Assembly: GCA_014879575.1 (NCBI GenBank)
Contig: JACSRU010000149.1
Span: 1 to 32,598 of the forward strand
Source of the DNA: Chthoniobacterales bacterium
GTDB taxonomy: Bacteria; Verrucomicrobiota; Verrucomicrobiia; Chthoniobacterales; Terrimicrobiaceae
Reading direction: 5' to 3'
DNA: 32,598 bases
Shown: positions 1 through 18,989 of the stretch, piece by piece
Numbering within the stretch: the stretch's first letter is position 1
Layout: every line of letters starts with the position of its first letter
Made by a program: the position numbers and the translations under genes
Notes under the pieces: generated by a model
Databases searched by the model: none
What the model saw: only the letters and a program-made list of their open reading frames with translations
What the model was told of the DNA's origin: nothing

Positions 1-874
1 CTTCGCCGCCGCCGAGCGGAGCTGTTCCGACATTGCCGGTCCCCTGGTCGCCGCCGAAGCCACTGGCCCCGTCCTGCGTTTCATCTCCTCCGGGGATTTC
101 GGGCGCTCCATCGTAAACGCCTTCAAAGACTTTCTGATCCGGGATGGAATCTGCAATCTGCTCGATCAAGGACTGAATTTGTTGGATGGTTTGGGCATCC
201 AGCGTGCGGACGCCATCAACCTCAAGAGTTCCATTCGGGCCGCGGCTCAAGGTCACCTTCTGTCCATCGGTCAACGTAATTTCCTGACCGTTGAGTGCCT
301 CGACGTCCGTGAGTCCGTGCGGCAGATTTACCGTGACAGTGACGCGTCCCCCCGCCATATTTGTGACCGTCACCTGGATGAGTGTGCCCCGGATCCCTGC
401 GACGCCCAGCGGGGTGCCGATGCCAAAGGTGGAGCCTTTGTTCAGCTTGGCCACATCGGCGACGACGCTTCCCTCATTGACCGAGAGTTTCGTCTGGGAA
501 ATGGAAGGCTCTTCCTTGATATTTTTGAAATCCGTTTTATTCGAGTCGAACGGGGTTTGCAGGAAGGTATCAATCGCGAAGGTGGTGTTTGGTTGAATGG
601 TGATCGTCGCGCCGTTGGAGAACAGGAGCCAGGCTTTGGAGTCCGCGCCGGTTTTGATTACATAGTTTTGCTGAACAAACCCGCCCTCCTTCAGGGCCTC
701 GGAAGGTTTTTTGGGGGCACTGACAGTCACCGATCCCTGAACCTTCAGGACACGGGCGTTACCCTCCTTGCCACCTTGCAACTCGGCGAGTCCACGATTT
801 GTTCCGCCCAGCAAAAATGCCAGAGCCAACAGAAAAACGACGGGGAAAGTTTTCATCGGTTGATACGATGGCAT
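1..874 (-). CDS. FecR-domain secreted protein, partial (C-terminus beyond window)
   Basis: Reading the minus strand gives an open frame with no stop down to base 1, so the C-terminus is missing. The N-terminus is a clear signal peptide (hydrophobic core VVFLLALAFLLGG), so the protein is exported. Residues about 35-180 resemble the FecR/LPS-assembly beta-rich domain: a GSVTV-like start, a segment on ATITIQPNTTF, then LSVNEGSVVADV and GTPLGVAGIRGT, all typical of FecR-like proteins. The later part is Gly/Asp/Gln-rich and low in complexity. The start is set at 874 because GAGGG lies six bases upstream; an in-frame ATG at 856 lacks such a site. No FecI sigma factor or TonB receptor lies beside it, so it is probably a stand-alone structural or surface protein rather than a classical iron-signalling regulator. 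Function is not established. Confidence 0.75.
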   Translation of the reverse strand, partial: MPSYQPMKTFPVVFLLALAFLLGGTNRGLAELQGGKEGNARVLKVQGSVTVSAPKKPSEALKEGGFVQQNYVIKTGADSKAWLLFSNGATITIQPNTTFAIDTFLQTPFDSNKTDFKNIKEEPSISQTKLSVNEGSVVADVAKLNKGSTFGIGTPLGVAGIRGTLIQVTVTNMAGGRVTVTVNLPHGLTDVEALNGQEITLTDGQKVTLSRGPNGTLEVDGVRTLDAQTIQQIQSLIEQIADSIPDQKVFEGVYDGAPEIPGGDETQDGASGFGGDQGTGNVGTAPLGGGE

Positions 875-897
875 AAGCCGCCCTCGAAGGAAAGGGG

Positions 898-922
898 AAA
901 GTGCGGGTTTCAGCACTTTTTT
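898..922. terminator. Hairpin with T-run between the FecR-like gene and the PHP-GT gene
   Basis: AAAGTGC and GCACTTT form a 7-bp perfect stem around an 8-base loop, followed on the plus strand by a run of six T (917-922). Both flanking genes run on the minus strand, where the T-run precedes the stem and the following bases are CTTTCCCC-like. It may still end minus-strand transcription weakly, or block plus-strand antisense transcription. Its direction is uncertain. Confidence 0.4.
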
Positions 923-942: not shown

Positions 943-3354
943 TTATTCCGGCGATTCGCGCCAGAATTTTTCAAAGGCTTCCGTCCAGTCGCGGGACTCG
1001 ACTTTTCCGCGACCCGCGAGTCCCATGTGGTGGCGGAGGGAGGGATCTTCCACGAGGCTCCGGATGGCGCCCGCCAACTCCGTGGCATCGAGGGACTTCG
1101 TGACAAAGCCGTCCTTGCCATGTTGCACGAGATCCCTTGGGCCGCCGACATCGGAGACGATGGCGGGAATCCCCGAAGCCTGGGCTTCGAGGACCACATT
1201 GCCGAAAGTGTCCGTTGTGCTGGGAAACACAAAAATATCCGCCGAGGCATAGGCGGCGGCGAGATCCTCGCCCTGGAGATAGCCGGTAAAAATGGCATCC
1301 GGCAGAAGGCGTTTCATGTCATTCATGTAGGGACCGTCGCCCACGAGGAGCGGTCGGGCGGGCACCCTGGCATCCGCCAGACGGCGGGTGGCCGCCACAA
1401 GGACATCCAGATTTTTTTCCTTGGAGACCCTCCCGACAAAAAGCATGCCGGTCTCCCCGTCGCGCAGACCGCGGGACTTCCAGAAGTCCGGATTCCTTTT
1501 TGAGGGATGGAAAAGCCGGGTATCGAGTCCTCTCGGGAGGATGTGCAATTTTTCCCGGGCAATGCCCTTTTCGATCCAGCATTTGCGGTAGTCCTCGGAG
1601 TTCACATAGACGACATCGAGCTGGCTGTAGAACCAATGCATGAAGTTCCAGGTGAGCGTCTCCATGAACGAATCGTCGGTCAGGATGCGGACGTATTGCG
1701 GGAAGTCGGTGTGATAGATTCCGACGGTGCGGAGTCCGAGGGTCTTGGCCGCCGCCAGGGCGCTCAGGCCGGTTGGACCGGGGGTGCTGATGATGATTTC
1801 CGAGAATCCGCCGCGTTCGAGGTAGTCGAAAATTTGGAGTGCCGGCGGAAAACTCAGTCGCTGGAGCTCGTATTCCGGCAGCTCGAATTCCCCGATGGGC
1901 TGGAAATTTTTCAAGGGGATTCCGTGATCTGCGACCTCGGAGCGGCAGGTGATGACCGTGATGTCGTGGCCCGCCGCAGTGCCTGCCGCCGTCATCTTGC
2001 GGATTGTCGTGGCCACGCCGTTCACATCCTCAAGAGTGTCTGTGAACCACGCCCGCTTGCGATTTTTCAGAAGATCCGGGGTGGTTCCACAGAGGGTTCG
2101 GGTGGAATCCCGGAGCCACTCCCGGCGGGGAAGCCGAAAGGCGTGAATATACGGACTGAGCAGCCCGACAAGCGGTGCCGCCGGGATGAGAGTCTGGATG
2201 CTCTCAAAATATTTGCCGGAGGAAATCTGCCGGATGAACTGGGTGACAAACTGGTAGCCGAGCTGGTTGGAGATCAGGTTGGCCATGAGGAAGGCGCGCC
2301 GCTCGGGCTCGGCGACGCCTGCGGTGACCTTCGCGATGGCGGCCTTCATTTCCGGTTTGCCAAAGAACGAAGCCAGATCCTTCCAGAGCGAGGAGGAGCC
2401 GGCTTTTGCCATGTCAAAAATTTTTCCGGTGGCCACCCCTTGGATCAGGAAGCCGAGTTTGTCGGCGAGCGAGAATTCGGTGGGATCCTGGCCCTCCATG
2501 AAACGCGAGAAAATTTTTTCCAGGAGGCTGGTTCCGGGGTCGCCGGGTTTGAGAGAGAGGCGGGCCTTGGCATACTGGAAGGCCGTGCTGTAGGTGCTGT
2601 GGGCGAGGGTGAGGGGGGTTCCGGATTCCCCGCCGGCCTCGCAGGCACCCTTGCGCACATGGTCCAAAAATTCGCGGGACTCCCCGCACTTCGGGGTCGT
2701 CGTGAACGCCCTCGCCGGGTGCGTGCCGCCATGATCATCCGATCCGCCGGTGAAAACTTTTTTCCAGGCTTCCTCATGGGTGGGTGCCAGGCCGGTTCTG
2801 GCGTTGAAAATTTCGATGTGTCGCGGGGTCAATTTGCCGAACACCTCGCGGGTGACATCGCTTACGAGGTGGGAATATCTCCCGTTGATCCCTTCAAAAT
2901 GCCGGAACAACAACGCCAGCTTCTGGAGGTGGAGGGCCGTCAGTTTTTCATTGAGGTTGTGAAACGGGTGGGCAATGGCGTGGGGGATCGCCTCCGCCGC
3001 CAGCAGCGACTGCATATCGTAGATGTTCTCCCGGGCATCCTGGATCTGGCGGTGCTGGGCTTCGGAGATTCCCCAGACGAGGATGTGAACCCGGCATTCG
3101 TCCTCGGGAAAAAACGCGGTGACTTCCTCTCCGATGATGACGTCGGGGAGGTGGGCGATCTCAAGACATCCGCTGATCGTGTTGTGATCGGTGAGTGTGA
3201 CGAAATCCATGCCCGCCGCCTTGAGGCGTTTGTAGGTTTGCAGCGGATCCGAGTAGCTGGCCGGAAAATCCAGACGCCGCAACACCCAGTCTGCCGCACG
3301 ATCACTGTGTCGGGAGTGGATGTGAAGATCTGCGCGGGAGGTTGTTGAGTTCAT
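943..3354 (-). CDS. PHP-domain phosphoesterase fused to GT4 glycosyltransferase
   Basis: An 803-aa two-enzyme protein. The N-terminal PHP domain (about 1-215) has the metal-binding set of the family: HIH at 11-13, TDHN at 55-58, EE at 76-77, AHPFH at 128-132 and SDDHGG at 205-210. The C-terminal part (about 430-800) is a GT-B glycosyltransferase of family 4: a NGVATTI glycine loop, ILPRGLDTRLF, LFVGRVSKEKN, and the DTFGNVVLEA donor-site motif seen in MgtA/PimB-type mannosyltransferases. About 200 residues in between match no family I recognise. The PHP half probably hydrolyses a phosphate ester and the GT half transfers a hexose to a lipid or glycan; the substrates are unknown. There is no signal peptide, so it should be cytoplasmic. 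The gene lies 52 bp downstream of the deacetylase and may be co-transcribed with it. Confidence 0.88.
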   Translation of the reverse strand: MNSTTSRADLHIHSRHSDRAADWVLRRLDFPASYSDPLQTYKRLKAAGMDFVTLTDHNTISGCLEIAHLPDVIIGEEVTAFFPEDECRVHILVWGISEAQHRQIQDARENIYDMQSLLAAEAIPHAIAHPFHNLNEKLTALHLQKLALLFRHFEGINGRYSHLVSDVTREVFGKLTPRHIEIFNARTGLAPTHEEAWKKVFTGGSDDHGGTHPARAFTTTPKCGESREFLDHVRKGACEAGGESGTPLTLAHSTYSTAFQYAKARLSLKPGDPGTSLLEKIFSRFMEGQDPTEFSLADKLGFLIQGVATGKIFDMAKAGSSSLWKDLASFFGKPEMKAAIAKVTAGVAEPERRAFLMANLISNQLGYQFVTQFIRQISSGKYFESIQTLIPAAPLVGLLSPYIHAFRLPRREWLRDSTRTLCGTTPDLLKNRKRAWFTDTLEDVNGVATTIRKMTAAGTAAGHDITVITCRSEVADHGIPLKNFQPIGEFELPEYELQRLSFPPALQIFDYLERGGFSEIIISTPGPTGLSALAAAKTLGLRTVGIYHTDFPQYVRILTDDSFMETLTWNFMHWFYSQLDVVYVNSEDYRKCWIEKGIAREKLHILPRGLDTRLFHPSKRNPDFWKSRGLRDGETGMLFVGRVSKEKNLDVLVAATRRLADARVPARPLLVGDGPYMNDMKRLLPDAIFTGYLQGEDLAAAYASADIFVFPSTTDTFGNVVLEAQASGIPAIVSDVGGPRDLVQHGKDGFVTKSLDATELAGAIRSLVEDPSLRHHMGLAGRGKVESRDWTEAFEKFWRESPE

Positions 3355-3405: not shown

Positions 3406-4191
3406 TCAGCAAGCTTCCGTGCGCTGGCGGACCAGCCAATCCGCATAAGTCATCGGCGCACGGAGGGCGAGCGCCCGGACGACCAGACGCAAAATCTGTT
3501 TCCGGATTTGCGGGTATTCCCAATCCGGCGGATGAATCCCGATCCGGGCCAGCGGGACGTTGCGCGTCCGGGAAAAAAGGAGGGCGTTCCATCCGAGGCT
3601 GCAACTCCGTCGCCAGGCGGCGCGCACACTCCAGACCTGGCTGCGGCTGCGATGGACGGCATTCGACACAAAATCGCTCACTGTCGCGATCCTTGTCGTG
3701 TAGTGAAATCCTGCTTCGCGGACGGCCTCTTCCGCCTCCCCGCCGAGGAGCCAGGCCGGGGCGATGAAGCCGGTCACCTTCACACCGCATCCCTCGACGG
3801 CGGCCCGGCCCCGGAGCAAAAGCTCCCGGGCGGACGCCTTGTCCAGGTCATAAAATTCCCCCTCCCCGGCGGTGTAGGATCGCGTGACCAGGCGCTTGAG
3901 CGGCCCATCGGATGTTTTGTTTTCCCGAAGATGGTAATACCCGTGCAGCACCGCCTCGTGGCCCCGGGAGCAGGCTGCCCTGAGCCACTCCGTGAACGGG
4001 GCGTCCTCGCAGACCAGTCCGTGGTGGTGGTGATCCGGCACCACCAGCAGTGAGGTGCGGGGGAGGCCGACAGACTCCAGATCCGCCAGGATGTCCTCCG
4101 TGCGCGATCGGGTGCGCGGACTCACGTCATGAATCGACACCACTAGCGCCCGCCGGGCTCCGCCTTCTTGAAGATCTTCCGTTTTTTGCAT
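3406..4191 (-). CDS. Polysaccharide deacetylase-like protein (DUF2334 type)
   Basis: A 261-aa protein with the metal-dependent NodB-like fold features of the DUF2334/polysaccharide deacetylase group: SIHDVSP at 19-25 (Asp22 is the expected catalytic/metal residue), a His run in PDHHHHG at 52-58, and HGYYH at 83-87, where the two His would ligate metal. GFIAPAWLLG further on matches the usual substrate-loop region. There is no signal peptide. Homologues remove N-acetyl groups from glycans, but the substrate here is unknown. A longer frame runs back to 4338 but would cover the ftsH start, so the ATG at 4191 is preferred; it has no strong ribosome-binding site. The gene is divergent from ftsH with only 35 bp between the starts. 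Proximity to the PHP-GT gene suggests a role in cell-envelope glycan work. Confidence 0.78.
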   Translation of the reverse strand: MQKTEDLQEGGARRALVVSIHDVSPRTRSRTEDILADLESVGLPRTSLLVVPDHHHHGLVCEDAPFTEWLRAACSRGHEAVLHGYYHLRENKTSDGPLKRLVTRSYTAGEGEFYDLDKASARELLLRGRAAVEGCGVKVTGFIAPAWLLGGEAEEAVREAGFHYTTRIATVSDFVSNAVHRSRSQVWSVRAAWRRSCSLGWNALLFSRTRNVPLARIGIHPPDWEYPQIRKQILRLVVRALALRAPMTYADWLVRQRTEAC

Positions 4192-4226
4192 TTGCCAAGT
4201 GGCTGTGATAAGGGAAACTAACCGGA

Positions 4227-6275
4227 ATGTCAGAAGAAAATCAGAGACCGCCAAACGACAACCGTCAACGCCCGGGCGGAGACAACGACCCGCAAATGAA
4301 CTGGAGGGGGCTTGTTCTCTTTGCCGTCGCGATCGCACTCATCGGGGGCGCCTTCCTTTTCCGCGGAAACAATTTCGCGCAGTCCGAAACCATCACCTAC
4401 CCGAAATTTTTGGAGTTCCTTAAAGCGGGCAAGGTCGTCAACACCCCGGAGACTCCCCTCGAACTCGTGGTCGAGGAAGGCCGGAACACCCAGTATCTCG
4501 AAGGCAAGATCAAGCAGAAGTCCAAGACAACCGGTGAGGAAGTCGCCACGCCATTCACCACGCCGATCTTCACTTCCTTCAACGGGGAGGAGATCCAGAA
4601 GACGCTGTCCGAGGCGGGAATCACCCCGTCCATCGTGCGGAAGTCCGACTACCTGGCTTCGGCCGTCGTCAGCTTTTTGCCCATCCTTCTCTTCCTGGTC
4701 ATCCTCTACTTCTTCTTCCGGTCTCAAATCAAGATGGCCGGCAAGGGGGCGCTGAATTTCGGAAAATCCAAGGCGCGGATGTTGTCGAAGGAAAAAAACC
4801 GGGTCACCTTCAAGGACGTTGCCGGCGTCGAAGAGGCGAAGGATGAAGTCCAGGAACTCGTCGAGTTCCTCAAGGATCCGAAGCGTTTCCAGAAGCTCGG
4901 CGGACGGATCCCCAAGGGAATTCTCATGGTGGGATCGCCGGGAACGGGAAAGACCCTTCTGGCGAGAGCCATTGCCGGGGAGGCGGATGTCCCGTTCTTT
5001 TCCATCAGCGGATCGGACTTTGTGGAAATGTTCGTCGGGGTCGGCGCCTCGCGCGTGCGGGACATGTTCGAGCAGGGGAAAAAGTCCGCTCCATGCCTGA
5101 TGTTCATTGACGAAATTGATGCCGTGGGGCGCCATCGCGGCCACGGCCTTGGCGGCGGACACGACGAACGCGAGCAGACGCTCAACCAGCTTCTCGTGGA
5201 GATGGACGGATTCGACACCCAGGATGGCGTGATTATCATCGCCGCGACGAACCGGCCCGACGTGCTCGATCCCGCCCTCCTTCGCCCGGGCCGCTTTGAC
5301 CGCCAGGTCACGGTGGCCCTGCCCGACGTCAAGGGACGGGAGGAAATTTTGAAGGTCCACTCAAAAAAGGTGAAGCTCGGGGAGGCTGTGGATCTCGCCG
5401 TTCTCGCCCGGGGCACTCCCGGATACTCGGGTGCCGAGCTGGCCAATGTCATCAACGAGGCCGCCCTGCTCGCCGCCAGAAAGGGGTTGAAGGCGATCGG
5501 GCAGCGGGAACTCGAAGAGGCCCGGGACAAGGTGCGCTGGGGCAAGGAACGCCGCAGCATGGCCATGAGCGAACGGGAAAAAATCTCGACCGCCTGGCAC
5601 GAGGCCGGTCACGCCCTGATCAACGTCCTGCTCGAGCACACGCACCCGCTGCACAAGGTCACAATCATCCCGCGCGGTCCCTATCTCGGTGCCACGATGT
5701 ATCTTCCCGAGGGGGACAAATACTCGACGCAACAGAAGGAGGCGTTGGACCTTCTTGCCGTGACCATGGGAGGACGCATCGCCGAGGAAATGTTTACCAA
5801 CGATGTCTCAAACGGCGCCGCCGGCGACATCCGTCAGGCGACCTCCCTCGCCCGCCGGATGGTTTGCGAGTGGGGCATGAGCTCGCTCGGCATGATCAGC
5901 TTCACGGAGAGCAACGATTACGTTTTTCTCGGTCGCGACATGGGACGCGCCCGCGAACACAGCGAGGCCACCGCCCAACTCATTGACGCCGAGGTCAAGC
6001 GGATTATTGACCAGGCTTACGAGCGGGCAAAAAAGATCCTGGAAGACCACCGCACGGACGTGGAAAAAATCGCCAAAGCCCTGCTGGAATACGAAACGCT
6101 CGACGCCTCGCATGTGAAGGAAATCATCGAATTTGGCGAGCTTCGCAATCCCCCGATCCAGGAAGTCGCGCCGCCGCCCCTGCCGCCGCCTCCATCGGGA
6201 ATTGCCTCGGAACCCCCCGAGACAATCAAGCCCGAACTCCCGCCGGGTGGCCTGGGCTCGCCAGCACCAGCTTGA
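4227..6275 (+). CDS. ftsH: ATP-dependent zinc metalloprotease FtsH
   Basis: A membrane-bound AAA+ protease that degrades damaged membrane proteins and selected cytosolic regulators, working as a hexamer. Of its 682 residues, TM1 lies at about 28-45, a periplasmic stretch follows, and TM2 lies at about 145-164. The AAA domain has Walker A GSPGTGKT (236-243), pore loop FVG (269-271), Walker B LMFIDE (291-296) and the second-region-of-homology arginines in [10 protein letters not shown]. The peptidase domain carries HEAGH (458-462), with Asp534 in [10 protein letters not shown] as the third zinc ligand, so it should be active. The last 40 residues are Pro-rich (several PPP runs), a tail of unknown role. 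ATG 4227 follows an AAGGG stretch about 12 bases upstream, a weak and distant ribosome site. The length is normal for the family. Identification is firm. Confidence 0.97.
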
Positions 6276-15380: not shown

Positions 15381-16153
15381 GAGTGACGGCCTTTCGCAAT
15401 GCGCGCAAACAAAATCCGCTTCATCCGGTAATAGTGCCAGCCGACCGTCCGCATCCAGAGGGCATCCCGGAGCGGACGCCAGTGGATTCCGTATTTTTTT
15501 TGCATGATGCGCGCTTCCTCCCAGGCGGTCGGGAGCTGGCTCCAGGTCTTCGCGTCCGCATGCAGGCGGCTGCAGGCCAGTGGTGCCTGCACATATTTCC
15601 AGTGGGTTTCTCCCGAGATCCGAAGCCAAAATTCATGGTCCATGCAAAACTTCAGGCTGGCATCCAGGAGTCCGAATTTCTCGAACACACGCCGTTGCAA
15701 AAAGACGGCGGGTTGGATGAGAAAATTGCCTTTTCTCAGGCGGTGCCCGGAAAAGGGGCCGACGATTTTCCTTCGCTTCCATCCGGATTCCAAAAAATAA
15801 GCGTCCCCGTAAACCACATCTGCGGAGGGCTCGGCTTTCCAGGCCTCCAGAACCTCCGCCAAGGCCGCCGGCTCCAGCAAATCGTCCGCGCACAGATACG
15901 AGACGATCTGCCCCGAGGTTTGTCGCAGGCCTTTGTTGATGGCATCCGTCTGGCCGTTGTCAGGTTCCGAAATCCAGCGGGCGAGGCTCTGGGAAGCCAG
16001 AAGCTCCCGGGTTTGGTCTGTGCTCCCGCCGTCCACGACGAGGTGCTCAACGGAAACTCCCGCCGTGGCGGCGGCCGCTTGCACGGAATCCAGGCACTCT
16101 CCGAGGAATTGCCCTTGATTCAGGGAGGGGGTGATGAGGGAGACGGTGGGCAT
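15377..16153 (-). CDS. Glycosyltransferase family 2
   Basis: A 258-aa GT-A enzyme that transfers a sugar from a nucleotide donor. The N-terminus gives the family's first strand, VSLITPSLNQGQFLGECLDS, followed by VVDGGSTDQT, DNGQTDAINKG and the metal-binding YLCADDLL. FCMDHEFWLRI later matches the (E/D)D(Y/F)W acceptor-side catalytic motif, here MDHEFW. No membrane segment is present. The start overlaps the preceding WecG-GT4 fusion by 34 bases in another frame, and the start methionine sits directly before the first beta strand, so I trust it. It overlaps the GT9 gene by four bases (ATGA). The sugar added is unknown. It presumably assembles the repeat unit or glycan made by this operon. Confidence 0.88.
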   Translation of the reverse strand: MPTVSLITPSLNQGQFLGECLDSVQAAAATAGVSVEHLVVDGGSTDQTRELLASQSLARWISEPDNGQTDAINKGLRQTSGQIVSYLCADDLLEPAALAEVLEAWKAEPSADVVYGDAYFLESGWKRRKIVGPFSGHRLRKGNFLIQPAVFLQRRVFEKFGLLDASLKFCMDHEFWLRISGETHWKYVQAPLACSRLHADAKTWSQLPTAWEEARIMQKKYGIHWRPLRDALWMRTVGWHYYRMKRILFARIAKGRHS

Positions 16154-18030
16154 GATCGCAAAGGGGAGGGGAGAAGTTCGTCGAAAAGCTGACGGTATCG
16201 CGCCATGACGACATCCCAGCTGAATTTAGCGACGGCTCTCCCGAGCGCAAGACGTCCCAGTTCCGCGCATCGCGAGGGATCGGCGGCGAGGGCGGAGATT
16301 TTTTCCGCGAGCGAATCCACGGGATTCTTTGGGTCGAAGGGCTCCGCGGTTTCGCCGAGGACCTCCCGGGTGGCCGGGCTGTCCTTGAAGAGGATCGCCT
16401 GGCCCATTCCCATCTGATCGAGCAGGACGAGACGTGTGGCTTCGATCGCGGCAGGCATGACAAAATACAGGGCGTTTTGGCTGAGTTCGATGTAGGCATC
16501 CCCAAATCGGGCTCCGGTGAAAATGACCCGGGCATCCGCAAGTTTCCGGAGCTTTTTGTAGTATGCGGTCTCGTAAGTCGGCATGCCGGTGATCACGAGT
16601 TTCAGCGGGCCATCGTATTGCCTCCAGGCTTCCAGAAGGAGGTCGGCCTCGTTTTCCGGAGTCAGGCGCGAGACGTGGAGGATGTAGCCCCTCGGTTCCA
16701 GCCCCCATTTTTTCAGTTCTCCGTTTCGCACGGGTGTCGTGCGAATCTGGCATCCGTAATTGATAAATTCCGGAGTGAGTCCGTAGTCTCTCTGGTATCT
16801 GCTGACAATCTCCCCGTTGTCCGCAATCAGGCGGTCGCCGAGGCGTGTGGCCCAGAGTTCGCTGAGCTTCAACCATTGCCGCGCAAAGGTTCCCCATTTT
16901 GCGCGTCGGAAATCCGCGCCGTCCACATTGATGACGACCGGGAGTCCGAATTTCTTCAGGAACCCGGCCAGGAGGGAATTGCCGACGCCGCAGAGGTAGA
17001 TGAGGTCGTATCCGCGAAAAATCGCATCCACGGCACAGAGCGTCGTATGGATGATCGTGTCGAGGCTCTTGGTGGGAATTGTCGGCCTCGTGATCAGTCG
17101 CATCCCCTTGTGAAAACGGCCCGATGCGACATGTTGGGGGAATCGGTTGTAAACGGTGACATCGTAACCGGCGGCCACCAGCCGGCTGCCGAGTTCCTCG
17201 ACAACCACCTCAAACCCCGAGTAGCGGGCCGGAACTCCGCGCGAGCCGAGAAATGCAATTTTTGTGCGGCGGTCGGAACGGGGCGTTCCCAGAATTTTGT
17301 CGCGGAAAAGATAGTAGAGAAAGAGGCTGTTATATTTGAAATATCTCGGGAAAAGCCGCTTGGGTTCCTGGGCGAGCCGGAAGAGCCATGTCAGTCCGGC
17401 CTTTTGCATCCAGGTCGGGGCAAAGGGACGGCTCCCGGCCAGAAGCTCGAAGGCGTCTCCCACGGCAAAGAAGACACCGCGTTCATGCCGCGGAAGATTT
17501 TTGAGAATCCACCGTTCCTGCCTCTCTCCGCCGAGTGCCACCCAGATGAAGTCGGCGCCGGAAGCGCGGATCATCCCGGCAAATTCCTCCTCGTCGGCTT
17601 CGGTCCATGCGCGGTAGGGCGGGGAAAAGGCGCCGACAATTTCCAGGTCTGGCTGGATTCCCAGGGCGGCGTCCTTCAGACGCATCAGGCAATCCTCGCT
17701 CCCGCCGAAAAAGAAATGTTTGTAGGGCCGGGGGGTATTCTGGAGGACATGCCGCATGAAATACGGGCCATAGACGCGGTCTCCCAATCGGGCTCCCGCA
17801 TTGTTCAGTTGCCAGACGAGGGGGTAGCCGTCCGGAAGCACGAGATCGAAGCGACGCATCACCGCGCCAAATGAGGCATCCTTGCGCGCCAGCGAGATGA
17901 TGTGCGTGTTGCTGGCCGACACGGCCGCCGGTGCCGGGCGCGCTGCCATCCGTTTCACCTCATCCAGCCCGGAGTCGTAATCGGCACAATGGACGGGTGT
18001 GCCAAGGATCGGGTGACTGTTCAGGTGCAT
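16120..18030 (-). CDS. WecG/TagA/CpsF (GT26) domain fused to a DUF1972/GT4 domain
   Basis: A 636-aa fusion. Residues about 1-240 form a WecG/TagA/CpsF transferase: SNTHIISLARKD (near 40), DLVLPDGYPLVW, a KHFFFGGSED segment and WVALGGERQERWI, the family's signature blocks. Such enzymes add N-acetylmannosamine or related sugars to a lipid-linked acceptor. From about 255, TKIAFLGSRGVPARYSGFE starts a DUF1972/GT4 rhamnosyltransferase-like domain, followed by INVDGADFRRAKWG and ILHVSRLTPENEAD. The usual C-terminal E-x7-E block reads AAIEATRLVLLDQMGMGQ, with a DQ pair where EA is expected. ATG 18030 is preferred to an upstream TTG at 18066 because the conserved region begins there. It should add two sugars in succession. 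The C-terminal end is Pro/Ser-rich and overlaps the next gene. Confidence 0.87.
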   Translation of the reverse strand: MHLNSHPILGTPVHCADYDSGLDEVKRMAARPAPAAVSASNTHIISLARKDASFGAVMRRFDLVLPDGYPLVWQLNNAGARLGDRVYGPYFMRHVLQNTPRPYKHFFFGGSEDCLMRLKDAALGIQPDLEIVGAFSPPYRAWTEADEEEFAGMIRASGADFIWVALGGERQERWILKNLPRHERGVFFAVGDAFELLAGSRPFAPTWMQKAGLTWLFRLAQEPKRLFPRYFKYNSLFLYYLFRDKILGTPRSDRRTKIAFLGSRGVPARYSGFEVVVEELGSRLVAAGYDVTVYNRFPQHVASGRFHKGMRLITRPTIPTKSLDTIIHTTLCAVDAIFRGYDLIYLCGVGNSLLAGFLKKFGLPVVINVDGADFRRAKWGTFARQWLKLSELWATRLGDRLIADNGEIVSRYQRDYGLTPEFINYGCQIRTTPVRNGELKKWGLEPRGYILHVSRLTPENEADLLLEAWRQYDGPLKLVITGMPTYETAYYKKLRKLADARVIFTGARFGDAYIELSQNALYFVMPAAIEATRLVLLDQMGMGQAILFKDSPATREVLGETAEPFDPKNPVDSLAEKISALAADPSRCAELGRLALGRAVAKFSWDVVMARYRQLFDELLPSPLRSCPPSPSSPPP

Positions 18031-18062
18031 GCGGGAAGAAACAAGGGGATCAGTGCGGGAAG

Positions 18063-18989
18063 TCAACGTCTGAGTTCGCGGCGGGCCATCCTTTCACGAA
18101 GCGCGGCACCGGACGCCGTGCCTGCCGGGTGCCCAAACAATGCGCCTTGAAGCAGGCAGGTGGCGGCATCCCTGAGACAGGAAAACCCCCACCCATGCGT
18201 ACGAAAAAACCTGCGGAAATTTCCGGGAAGATACCACCACAGGTGACGGCTGTGGGGGGAGTGGAAGGCCAGATACGAGAGATTTTGCAGGAGGGAACAA
18301 AATTTTCGGTAATCGGATTTTCTGGCCGCCTCGCGGTCTGTTTGTTCCGGCGGGAGGTGGGGAATCGCCACCCGGCAGGTAAAGACTCCGCGTCCTGCGC
18401 CGGCCAACCGCATCGAGAATTCCAAGTCCTCCCCGAGCATCCAAAAATCCTTCCGGTGCCGCGCTCCCGCCGCGGCGGCATCCACCAACAGGCAGGCACC
18501 GGTGGCCCAGCAAAACGGATGGGGGCCCGGACCCAGCAGGGCGAGGGCGTCGGCGGGAGTGCGCGCCTGCCGGATTTTCCTCCTGTCGATCTTTGAAACA
18601 GGTTCCGGAAATCCCCAGAGTTCCCCCCGGTCATTTTCGAGCAGGGGGCAGATCGCCGAGGCTCCATGCTTTTCCCGCAGGAGAATTTCCAGCGCGTCCG
18701 GCGGGAGCACAACATCATCATCAAGATATAGAAGATCGGTTTCGCCAAAAACCTCTCGGGCGATCCGAGCACCATTCGCCCACCCTGCGCCGGGCCCCGG
18801 ATTGGACAGATCTTGAACCCGTCGGATGGGAAAGGGAAAGCGTGCCGAGATTTCCCCGGGAACCGTCCCCGCATGGTCCATCACCACGCAGCCCTGAAAG
18901 GGAACGGACGATTGGGCCATGCTCGCAAGGAGCCGTTCCAATTCGCGTTCCCGCCTCCACGTGACCACCACTGCCACCACGCGGTTCAT
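18063..18989 (-). CDS. Glycosyltransferase family 2 (rhamnosyl-/galactofuranosyltransferase-like)
   Basis: A 308-aa GT-A enzyme of the subgroup that includes rhamnosyl and GlfT2-like transferases. Visible motifs: VVAVVVTWRRERELERLLAS at the N-terminus, NPGPGAGWANG (the family's N.G.agg.N.G block), the metal-binding YLDDDVVL, and FWMLGEDLEFSMRLAGAG, whose ED pair is the expected catalytic base. The C-terminal 100 residues are Arg/His/Trp-rich and may lie along the membrane. ATG 18989 is chosen over 19001 because it forms an ATGA overlap with the upstream reductase. If the reductase makes a rhamnose donor, this enzyme is a good candidate user; that is inference. Confidence 0.87.
   Translation of the reverse strand: MNRVVAVVVTWRRERELERLLASMAQSSVPFQGCVVMDHAGTVPGEISARFPFPIRRVQDLSNPGPGAGWANGARIAREVFGETDLLYLDDDVVLPPDALEILLREKHGASAICPLLENDRGELWGFPEPVSKIDRRKIRQARTPADALALLGPGPHPFCWATGACLLVDAAAAGARHRKDFWMLGEDLEFSMRLAGAGRGVFTCRVAIPHLPPEQTDREAARKSDYRKFCSLLQNLSYLAFHSPHSRHLWWYLPGNFRRFFRTHGWGFSCLRDAATCLLQGALFGHPAGTASGAALRERMARRELRR

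Follow-up and report, generated by a model that had tools for sequence, protein, structure and literature searches.

What would a PHP phosphoesterase domain do for a GT4 glycosyltransferase to which it is fused? The question is raised by a gene of a Chthoniobacterales bacterium (GCA_014879575.1, contig JACSRU010000149.1, positions 1-32,598; this whole stretch of 32,598 nucleotides is called the window). Its 803-residue product, encoded at 943-3354 (-), is designated PHP-GT, and order, class and phylum refer to Chthoniobacterales, Verrucomicrobiia and Verrucomicrobiota, respectively. Titles and abstract openings in the literature searched contained no description of a PHP-GT4 fusion, and the part of PMC12419801 available to us concerns a PHP gene in a different setting. 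The gene is made up as follows.

943-3354, (-) strand: PHP-GT gene, ATG start, 803 amino acids, PHP - helical middle - GT4 (reading frame, Pfam and fold model)
2626-3354, (-) strand: PHP domain, residues 1-243 (structure matches and secondary structure of the model)
2059-2625, (-) strand: helical middle, residues 244-432 (model; the least conserved part relative to rows from outside the order)
943-2058, (-) strand: GT4 glycosyltransferase domain, residues 433-803 (Pfam; separate clade in the GT4 tree)
1186-1212, (-) strand: D715-x7-E723 (sequence)

A PHP domain, a helical middle and a GT4 domain in one chain

The GT4 half passes the Pfam cut-offs, with 118.9 bits for PF00534 (cut-off 26.4) and 79.5 bits for PF13439 (cut-off 28.5). 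Its acidic-x7-E signature is D715-x7-E723, which we take to occupy the place of the GT4 E-x7-E motif; across an alignment of 80 rows, neither position falls below 97% conservation. Solved lipid-acting GT4 enzymes, the phosphatidylinositol mannoside mannosyltransferase 3oka and PimA (2gej), are among the best relatives of this half. A simple hydropathy scan of PHP-GT revealed no transmembrane stretch.

The N-terminal part scores only 12.1 bits against PF02811 (PHP), under the cut-off of 26.4, and among its relatives PF02811 is detected in 37/92 and PHP_C in 49/92 (E ≤ 0.1). Residues 1-432 were modelled with AlphaFold2 from 92 aligned sequences (pLDDT 90.7, pTM 0.89). A Foldseek search of the PDB returned nine matches at E ≤ 0.001, comprising RNase AM, predicted PHP or metal-dependent phosphoesterases, 2yb1 and PsfC (a search for which found nothing). 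The best-matching solved structures are PHP proteins, among them the PHP domain of RNase AM, 7ug9 (E 3.4e-7), and VIA-align superposed 195 residues of 3e38_A on the PHP model with a Z score of 18.5 and an rmsd of 3.2. RNase AM and related phosphoesterases (7ug9, 9etk, 2yb1, 3o0f) are thus the nearest solved folds, but they share only 14-23% identity with PHP-GT and lack a GT4 partner. As fold and metal ligands outweigh a detection threshold, the low Pfam score is read as that of a divergent PHP domain, an identity settled by the modelled fold.

In the model the PHP fold ends at about residue 243, and residues 247-422 consist of helices only. This middle is the fastest-changing part of the protein: the mean identity between the window protein and rows from outside the order is 25%, against 45% for each flank, all means being slightly inflated by inclusion of the window row itself. 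The model of residues 236-432 gave no PDB match at E ≤ 0.001 with Foldseek; a second structure comparison gave at best a designed helical protein (Z 5.8, 81 residues, rmsd 3.2), and a sequence profile found nothing in the PDB under E 0.03. Such a lack of structure matches does not show a new fold. The sequence-only reading had described a PHP domain fused to GT4 in one chain, which the 803-residue frame, the Pfam matches and the fold model confirm, joined by an unassigned 200-residue linker at 215-430. The helical middle indeed exists, and neither the PDB profile search nor Foldseek assigned it to a known domain, but its true span is about 244-432, since the PHP fold reaches to about residue 243.

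Comparison with the two nearest relatives, L009 and L010, gave dN/dS values of 0.045-0.131 across the three parts, indicating purifying selection. Together with the retrieval of 160 relatives (the best 80 being retained) when a genome collection was scanned with window peptides, these values argue that the fusion is not a chance event. In a sample of 387 genomes of the phylum, a query made of the PHP part and the middle found a match in 49. Both halves lie in one open frame in 43 of the 49, four others (G256, G290, G311 and G152) are interrupted by the end of a contig, by a stop or by a split frame, and G317 and G086 match distantly, in the PHP part only. In a tree of the GT4 half, the 31 rows of PHP-GT fall into a single clade, inside which the rows of the order cluster, as do those of the class, pointing to vertical descent of a single fusion that is, judged from these sequences, old. 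No relatives were found in plasmids (E 1e-5) or in viral contigs.

Two frames with long N-terminal additions, L130 (about 650 residues) and L135 (about 480), have no relatives of these additions among the fetched genes and look like read-through of an upstream frame. At L136:4581-6764 (-), a PHP domain is followed by a long part that faintly resembles the N-terminal GT4 half and has no Pfam match there; its product may be a distant or truncated cousin of PHP-GT.

The PHP metal site and its piecemeal loss

PHP domains follow a nine-position metal ligand consensus, H H D/H H E H C/H D/N H, as given in the part of PMC3666897 available to us. Alignment placed the corresponding residues of PHP-GT as follows.

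3316-3324, (-) strand: H11-x-H13, ligands 1 and 2 (alignment and PMC3666897 consensus)
3301-3303, (-) strand: D18, ligand 3, lost in 72/117 rows (alignment)
3184-3186, (-) strand: H57, ligand 4 (alignment)
3124-3126, (-) strand: E77, ligand 5, lost in 43/117 rows (alignment)
3085-3087, (-) strand: H90, ligand 6 (alignment)
2968-2970, (-) strand: H129, ligand 7 (alignment)
2731-2739, (-) strand: D206-x-H208, ligands 8 and 9 (alignment)

All nine residues of the window protein (H11, H13, D18, H57, E77, H90, H129, D206 and H208) fit the consensus, bearing out the sequence-only reading of a full metal set ahead of the GT4 domain. Conservation was counted over 117 of 128 aligned rows, after setting aside rows without a full GT or PHP part (L136, L137, L080, L162, L053, L122, L125 and L133) and duplicates (L142, L143 and L146). 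The complete site occurs in 26 of the 117 rows: 20/34 outside the order and 6/83 within it, namely the window protein, L009, L010, L064, L067 and L069. Outside the order, 12 of the 14 incomplete rows miss a single site (D18 in 11, H11 in one). Inside it the losses are a mix of D18, E77, H57, H208 and H90, the last being lost in 18/117 rows. Mapped over all rows onto a tree that was constructed solely from GT4 halves, the sites need a minimum of 17 changes for D18, 10 for H90, 7 for E77, and 6 each for H57 and H208. Position 206, as D or N, is kept in 117/117 rows and H11 in 115/117.

Loss of the ligands in homologues was what the sequence-only reading had named as speaking against its phosphatase. 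Such loss is seen in the majority of the order, but the complete sites outside the order show that it does not extend to the entire family. With one or more ligands missing from 77/83 order rows, phosphatase action cannot be shared by the whole order, and the PHP domain of most close relatives is probably not a normal phosphatase; that of the window species and its nearest relatives, where the site is whole, may still work.

This pattern bears on two explanations that do without an acceptor-directed reaction. The PHP half could be a structural or regulatory relic, chemically inert itself but stabilising or positioning the GT4 domain, on the pattern of E. coli DNA polymerase III. The repeated ligand losses (at least 17 changes at D18, 10 at H90 and 7 at E77) in a domain retained under purifying selection fit this idea, which has its precedent in the polymerase alpha subunit, where a PHP domain likewise persists within a larger enzyme despite the decay of its metal ligands (PMC3666897, in the part available). 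The partner in PHP-GT is, however, a glycosyltransferase, and many relatives, including the window protein, have all nine ligands. This whole site, the 20 intact rows from outside the order and the near-invariance of position 206 and H11 speak against a relic, which we consider possible but unlikely.

Alternatively, the PHP half might hydrolyse the nucleotide released by the GT4 domain (UDP or UMP) and so pull the transfer forward. Close folds include 2yb1, solved with Mn, AMP and phosphate (Z 15.6 against the PHP model), as well as the RNase AM domain 7ug9, and the available part of PMC4822814 reports that the PHP domain of DNA polymerase III splits the by-product pyrophosphate. Such help would have to be dispensable in the order, where ligands were lost repeatedly, and we regard nucleotide hydrolysis as quite improbable.

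The GpgD-like neighbour and the GlcN-PG pathway

The survey of gene neighbours proposed from sequence was carried out, and it placed a GpgD-like gene upstream of PHP-GT in the order and phoB-like and lipid genes near it outside the class. In the window the upstream gene is the following.

3406-4338, (-) strand: DUF2334 GpgD-like gene, 51 bases directly upstream of PHP-GT (PF10096, 75.2 bits)

It has an in-frame ATG at residue 50 (about position 4191). Its best NCBIfam match is the GlcNAc-PG deacetylase NF053788 (191.7 bits, under the cut-off of 280); as none of the 387 genomes passes this cut-off, the neighbour is a relative of GpgD rather than a certified member. Among the best 80 of 160 relatives, 76 order loci extend far enough upstream to show the neighbour. 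In 62 of them the gene immediately before PHP-GT, in the same orientation, is GpgD-like; the other 14 have none in the locus, and 4/80 have too little upstream DNA.

In Pseudomonas aeruginosa, GpgS makes GlcNAc-PG and GpgD deacetylates it (PMC12713373, in the part available), which raises the possibility that PHP-GT is the GlcNAc-PG synthase of a GlcN-PG pathway and that the DUF2334 protein deacetylates its product. The best NCBIfam matches of the two proteins are indeed NF053787, the GlcNAc-PG synthase, and NF053788, and their tight adjacency recalls the gpgSDF operon. The GT4 half nevertheless reaches only 137 bits against NF053787, far under the cut-off of 480, and the window genome carries a separate GpgS-like gene scoring 281.5 bits (G000:C88:2266-3420). 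In the GT4 tree, PHP-GT (31 rows) and GpgS-like proteins (19 rows) form two clades with 100/100 support. Strong GpgS-like matches (E ≤ 1e-60) occur in 21/387 genomes, 19 of them with PHP-GT, and strong GpgD-like matches (E ≤ 1e-40) in 22/387, 21 of them with PHP-GT. The separate GpgS-like gene is accompanied by a strong GpgD-like match in 20 of its 21 genomes, while a strong GpgD-like match is missing from 28 of the 49 genomes with PHP-GT. In addition, gpgS of PA14 has only 1116 bases, which leaves no room for a PHP part (PMC12713373, in the part available). A role of PHP-GT as this synthase thus appears very unlikely.

Comparison with gpgSDF therefore yields both likeness and difference. A GT4 gene stands beside a GpgD-like DUF2334 gene, and in one clade a flippase-like gene is found nearby: L123 has one close by that matches the GlcN-PG flippase best, with 113.4 bits against a cut-off of 320. 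The GT4 half of PHP-GT belongs to another clade, though, and the GpgS-like gene is separate; at L121, in the same class, GpgS-like, GNAT-like, GpgD-like and PHP-GT genes stand in a row. As judged from clades, scores and the separate gene in the same genome, PHP-GT is not GpgS, and it would be a companion of the GlcN-PG pathway with a role of its own.

The GNAT-like genes encode a family of about 240 residues, under the Pfam cut-off (L121:4339-5061 (+) and L123:1580-2296 (+)). Relatives occur in L152, L171, L173-L175, L185 and L187-L190, repeatedly near GpgS-like or GpgD-like genes, and the family is a candidate for a further step in sugar-lipid synthesis. The stretch around the GpgS-like gene of the window genome lacks it.

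Replacement of the PGP phosphatase PgpA by PHP-GT was also considered. No PgpA match was obtained in the window genome or in any of the 11 order genomes of the 387-genome sample; in the window genome, PAP2 is matched twice and CDP-alcohol transferase three times. PgpA is present in 173/387 genomes, including many outside-class carriers of PHP-GT, and the order members G036 and G057 lack both PHP-GT and PgpA, so there is no sign of such a replacement.

Phosphate and lipid genes outside the class, and a proposed role

In 8/30 genomes from outside the class, PHP-GT has a phoB-like match no more than 15 kb away. The expected number is 0.56 under a chance model that takes no account of operons or of contig ends, and the test was partly post hoc, as six of the eight loci had been noticed beforehand. 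By family the proximity is found in 5/14 (0.55 expected). G317 and G086 (L136 and L137), which have the PHP part only, were left out of the count. None of 17 in-class genomes has a phoB-like match within this distance. An NtrC control yielded 197 matches in 30 genomes, and, by eye, none of those listed, a part of the total, is as close as 15 kb to PHP-GT. PhoU, also assessed by eye in the 30 genomes, is found within 15 kb in G221, G300 and G309, and within 25 kb in G007 as well. Six response regulators near PHP-GT (L127, L130, L131, L153, L154 and L166) all have PhoB (TIGR02154) as their best NCBIfam match, at 228-257 bits (cut-off 296), and the kinases in L127 and L130 are PnpS/PhoR-like. The PHP site of L127 is badly decayed, with four ligands lost. 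The Pho box consensus, taken from the part of PMC8528852 available, was not enriched upstream of 27 outside-class genes relative to 170 controls.

Two of the phoB-proximal outside-class genomes also have genes resembling ornithine-lipid and glycolipid synthases. In L153, PHP-GT is followed on the same strand by an unassigned 572-residue gene, an OlsF-like gene (385.9 bits, cut-off 620) whose cluster has members in L154 and L161, a small protein with hydrophobic stretches, a diglucosyl-DAG-synthase-like gene (219.2 bits, cut-off 500) and the phoB-like gene. The scores of all these lipid and phosphate neighbours are under the curated cut-offs. Taken together, the neighbours suggest the building of sugar-bearing membrane lipids, perhaps first used in phosphate shortage.

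An unassigned family of about 570 residues recurs near PHP-GT in nine outside-class loci, e.g., L153:4369-6084 (-) and L167:6165-7874 (-). One member has no Pfam match, and another has neither an NCBIfam match nor a predicted membrane stretch.

The same neighbourhoods bear on a role in exopolysaccharide or surface-glycan synthesis, with the DUF2334 protein as a polysaccharide deacetylase. The next matches of the GT4 half are glycosyltransferases of PEP-CTERM/XrtA systems (93.4 bits, cut-off 409), and further glycosyltransferase genes lie some 12-15 kb away in the window. The latter are not adjacent, however, GT4 enzymes cross-score widely, and lipid genes and phosphate regulators account for several of the neighbours that could be identified outside the class. 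We consider a surface-glycan role very unlikely.

PlcP converts phospholipids to diacylglycerol, which Agt, a GT4 enzyme, glycosylates when phosphate is short (PMC4796936, PMC8231724 and PMC8528852, in the parts available). PHP-GT recalls this pair by its phosphoesterase fold and GT4 domain and, outside the class, by a possible phosphate-regulon setting with surrogate-lipid-like genes. It differs in being one chain where PlcP and Agt are two proteins, and by the lack of a detected Pho box.

We tentatively propose, at somewhat less than even confidence, that PHP-GT is a membrane-lipid glycosyltransferase, a one-chain analogue of PlcP-Agt whose PHP half ancestrally supplied or processed the lipid acceptor, with a site that has since decayed in most of the order. 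PlcP itself has a different metallophosphoesterase fold, and against the proposal, no PHP enzyme is known to us to act on a lipid. PHP-GT would be cytoplasmic, and its GT4 half would use a nucleotide sugar to glycosylate a lipid acceptor. The ancestral PHP half, modelled on PlcP, would have stripped a phosphate or phospho-headgroup from a lipid or intermediate, thereby making or freeing the acceptor; acceptor, donor sugar and PHP substrate, like this order of steps, are inferred. The helical middle would couple the two halves and possibly contact the membrane. In the order, the gene adjoins that of a GpgD-like sugar-lipid deacetylase, and most species have lost the metal site piecemeal. The earlier suggestion of a phosphoesterase serving the acceptor thus agrees with the lipid and phosphate neighbourhoods outside the class, but not with the decayed ligands of most order rows.

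A more specific version, which we think distinctly unlikely, makes PHP-GT a single-chain lipid exchanger for phosphate starvation. The PHP domain would cleave a phospholipid headgroup or the phosphate of phosphatidate, and diacylglycerol would pass via the helical domain to the GT4 half; in most species of the order the phosphoesterase half would have been retired, leaving a glycosyltransferase beside the GpgD-like deacetylase. In such an exchanger a PHP domain would, for the first time as far as we are aware, have a lipid as its substrate.

A lipid role of PHP-GT, in the broader form proposed as well, would connect the PHP superfamily with the chemistry of membrane lipids and provide Verrucomicrobiota with a way of making sugar lipids. 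Because whole and decayed PHP domains occur in the same enzyme, they provide a natural series for directly testing the role of a fused phosphoesterase, and this series, together with the shift of neighbourhood, gives PHP-GT an interest beyond the fusion itself.

Two other genes of the window were noted. Downstream of PHP-GT on the same strand, a gene at 2-916 (-) runs off the window edge; by eye, its product presumably resembles a secreted FecR-type protein. A second fused glycosyltransferase of 648 residues is encoded in one frame at 16120-18066 (-); its GT4/DUF1972 half comes after a WecG/TagA/CpsF domain, which spans residues 74-242 and scores 153.6 bits.
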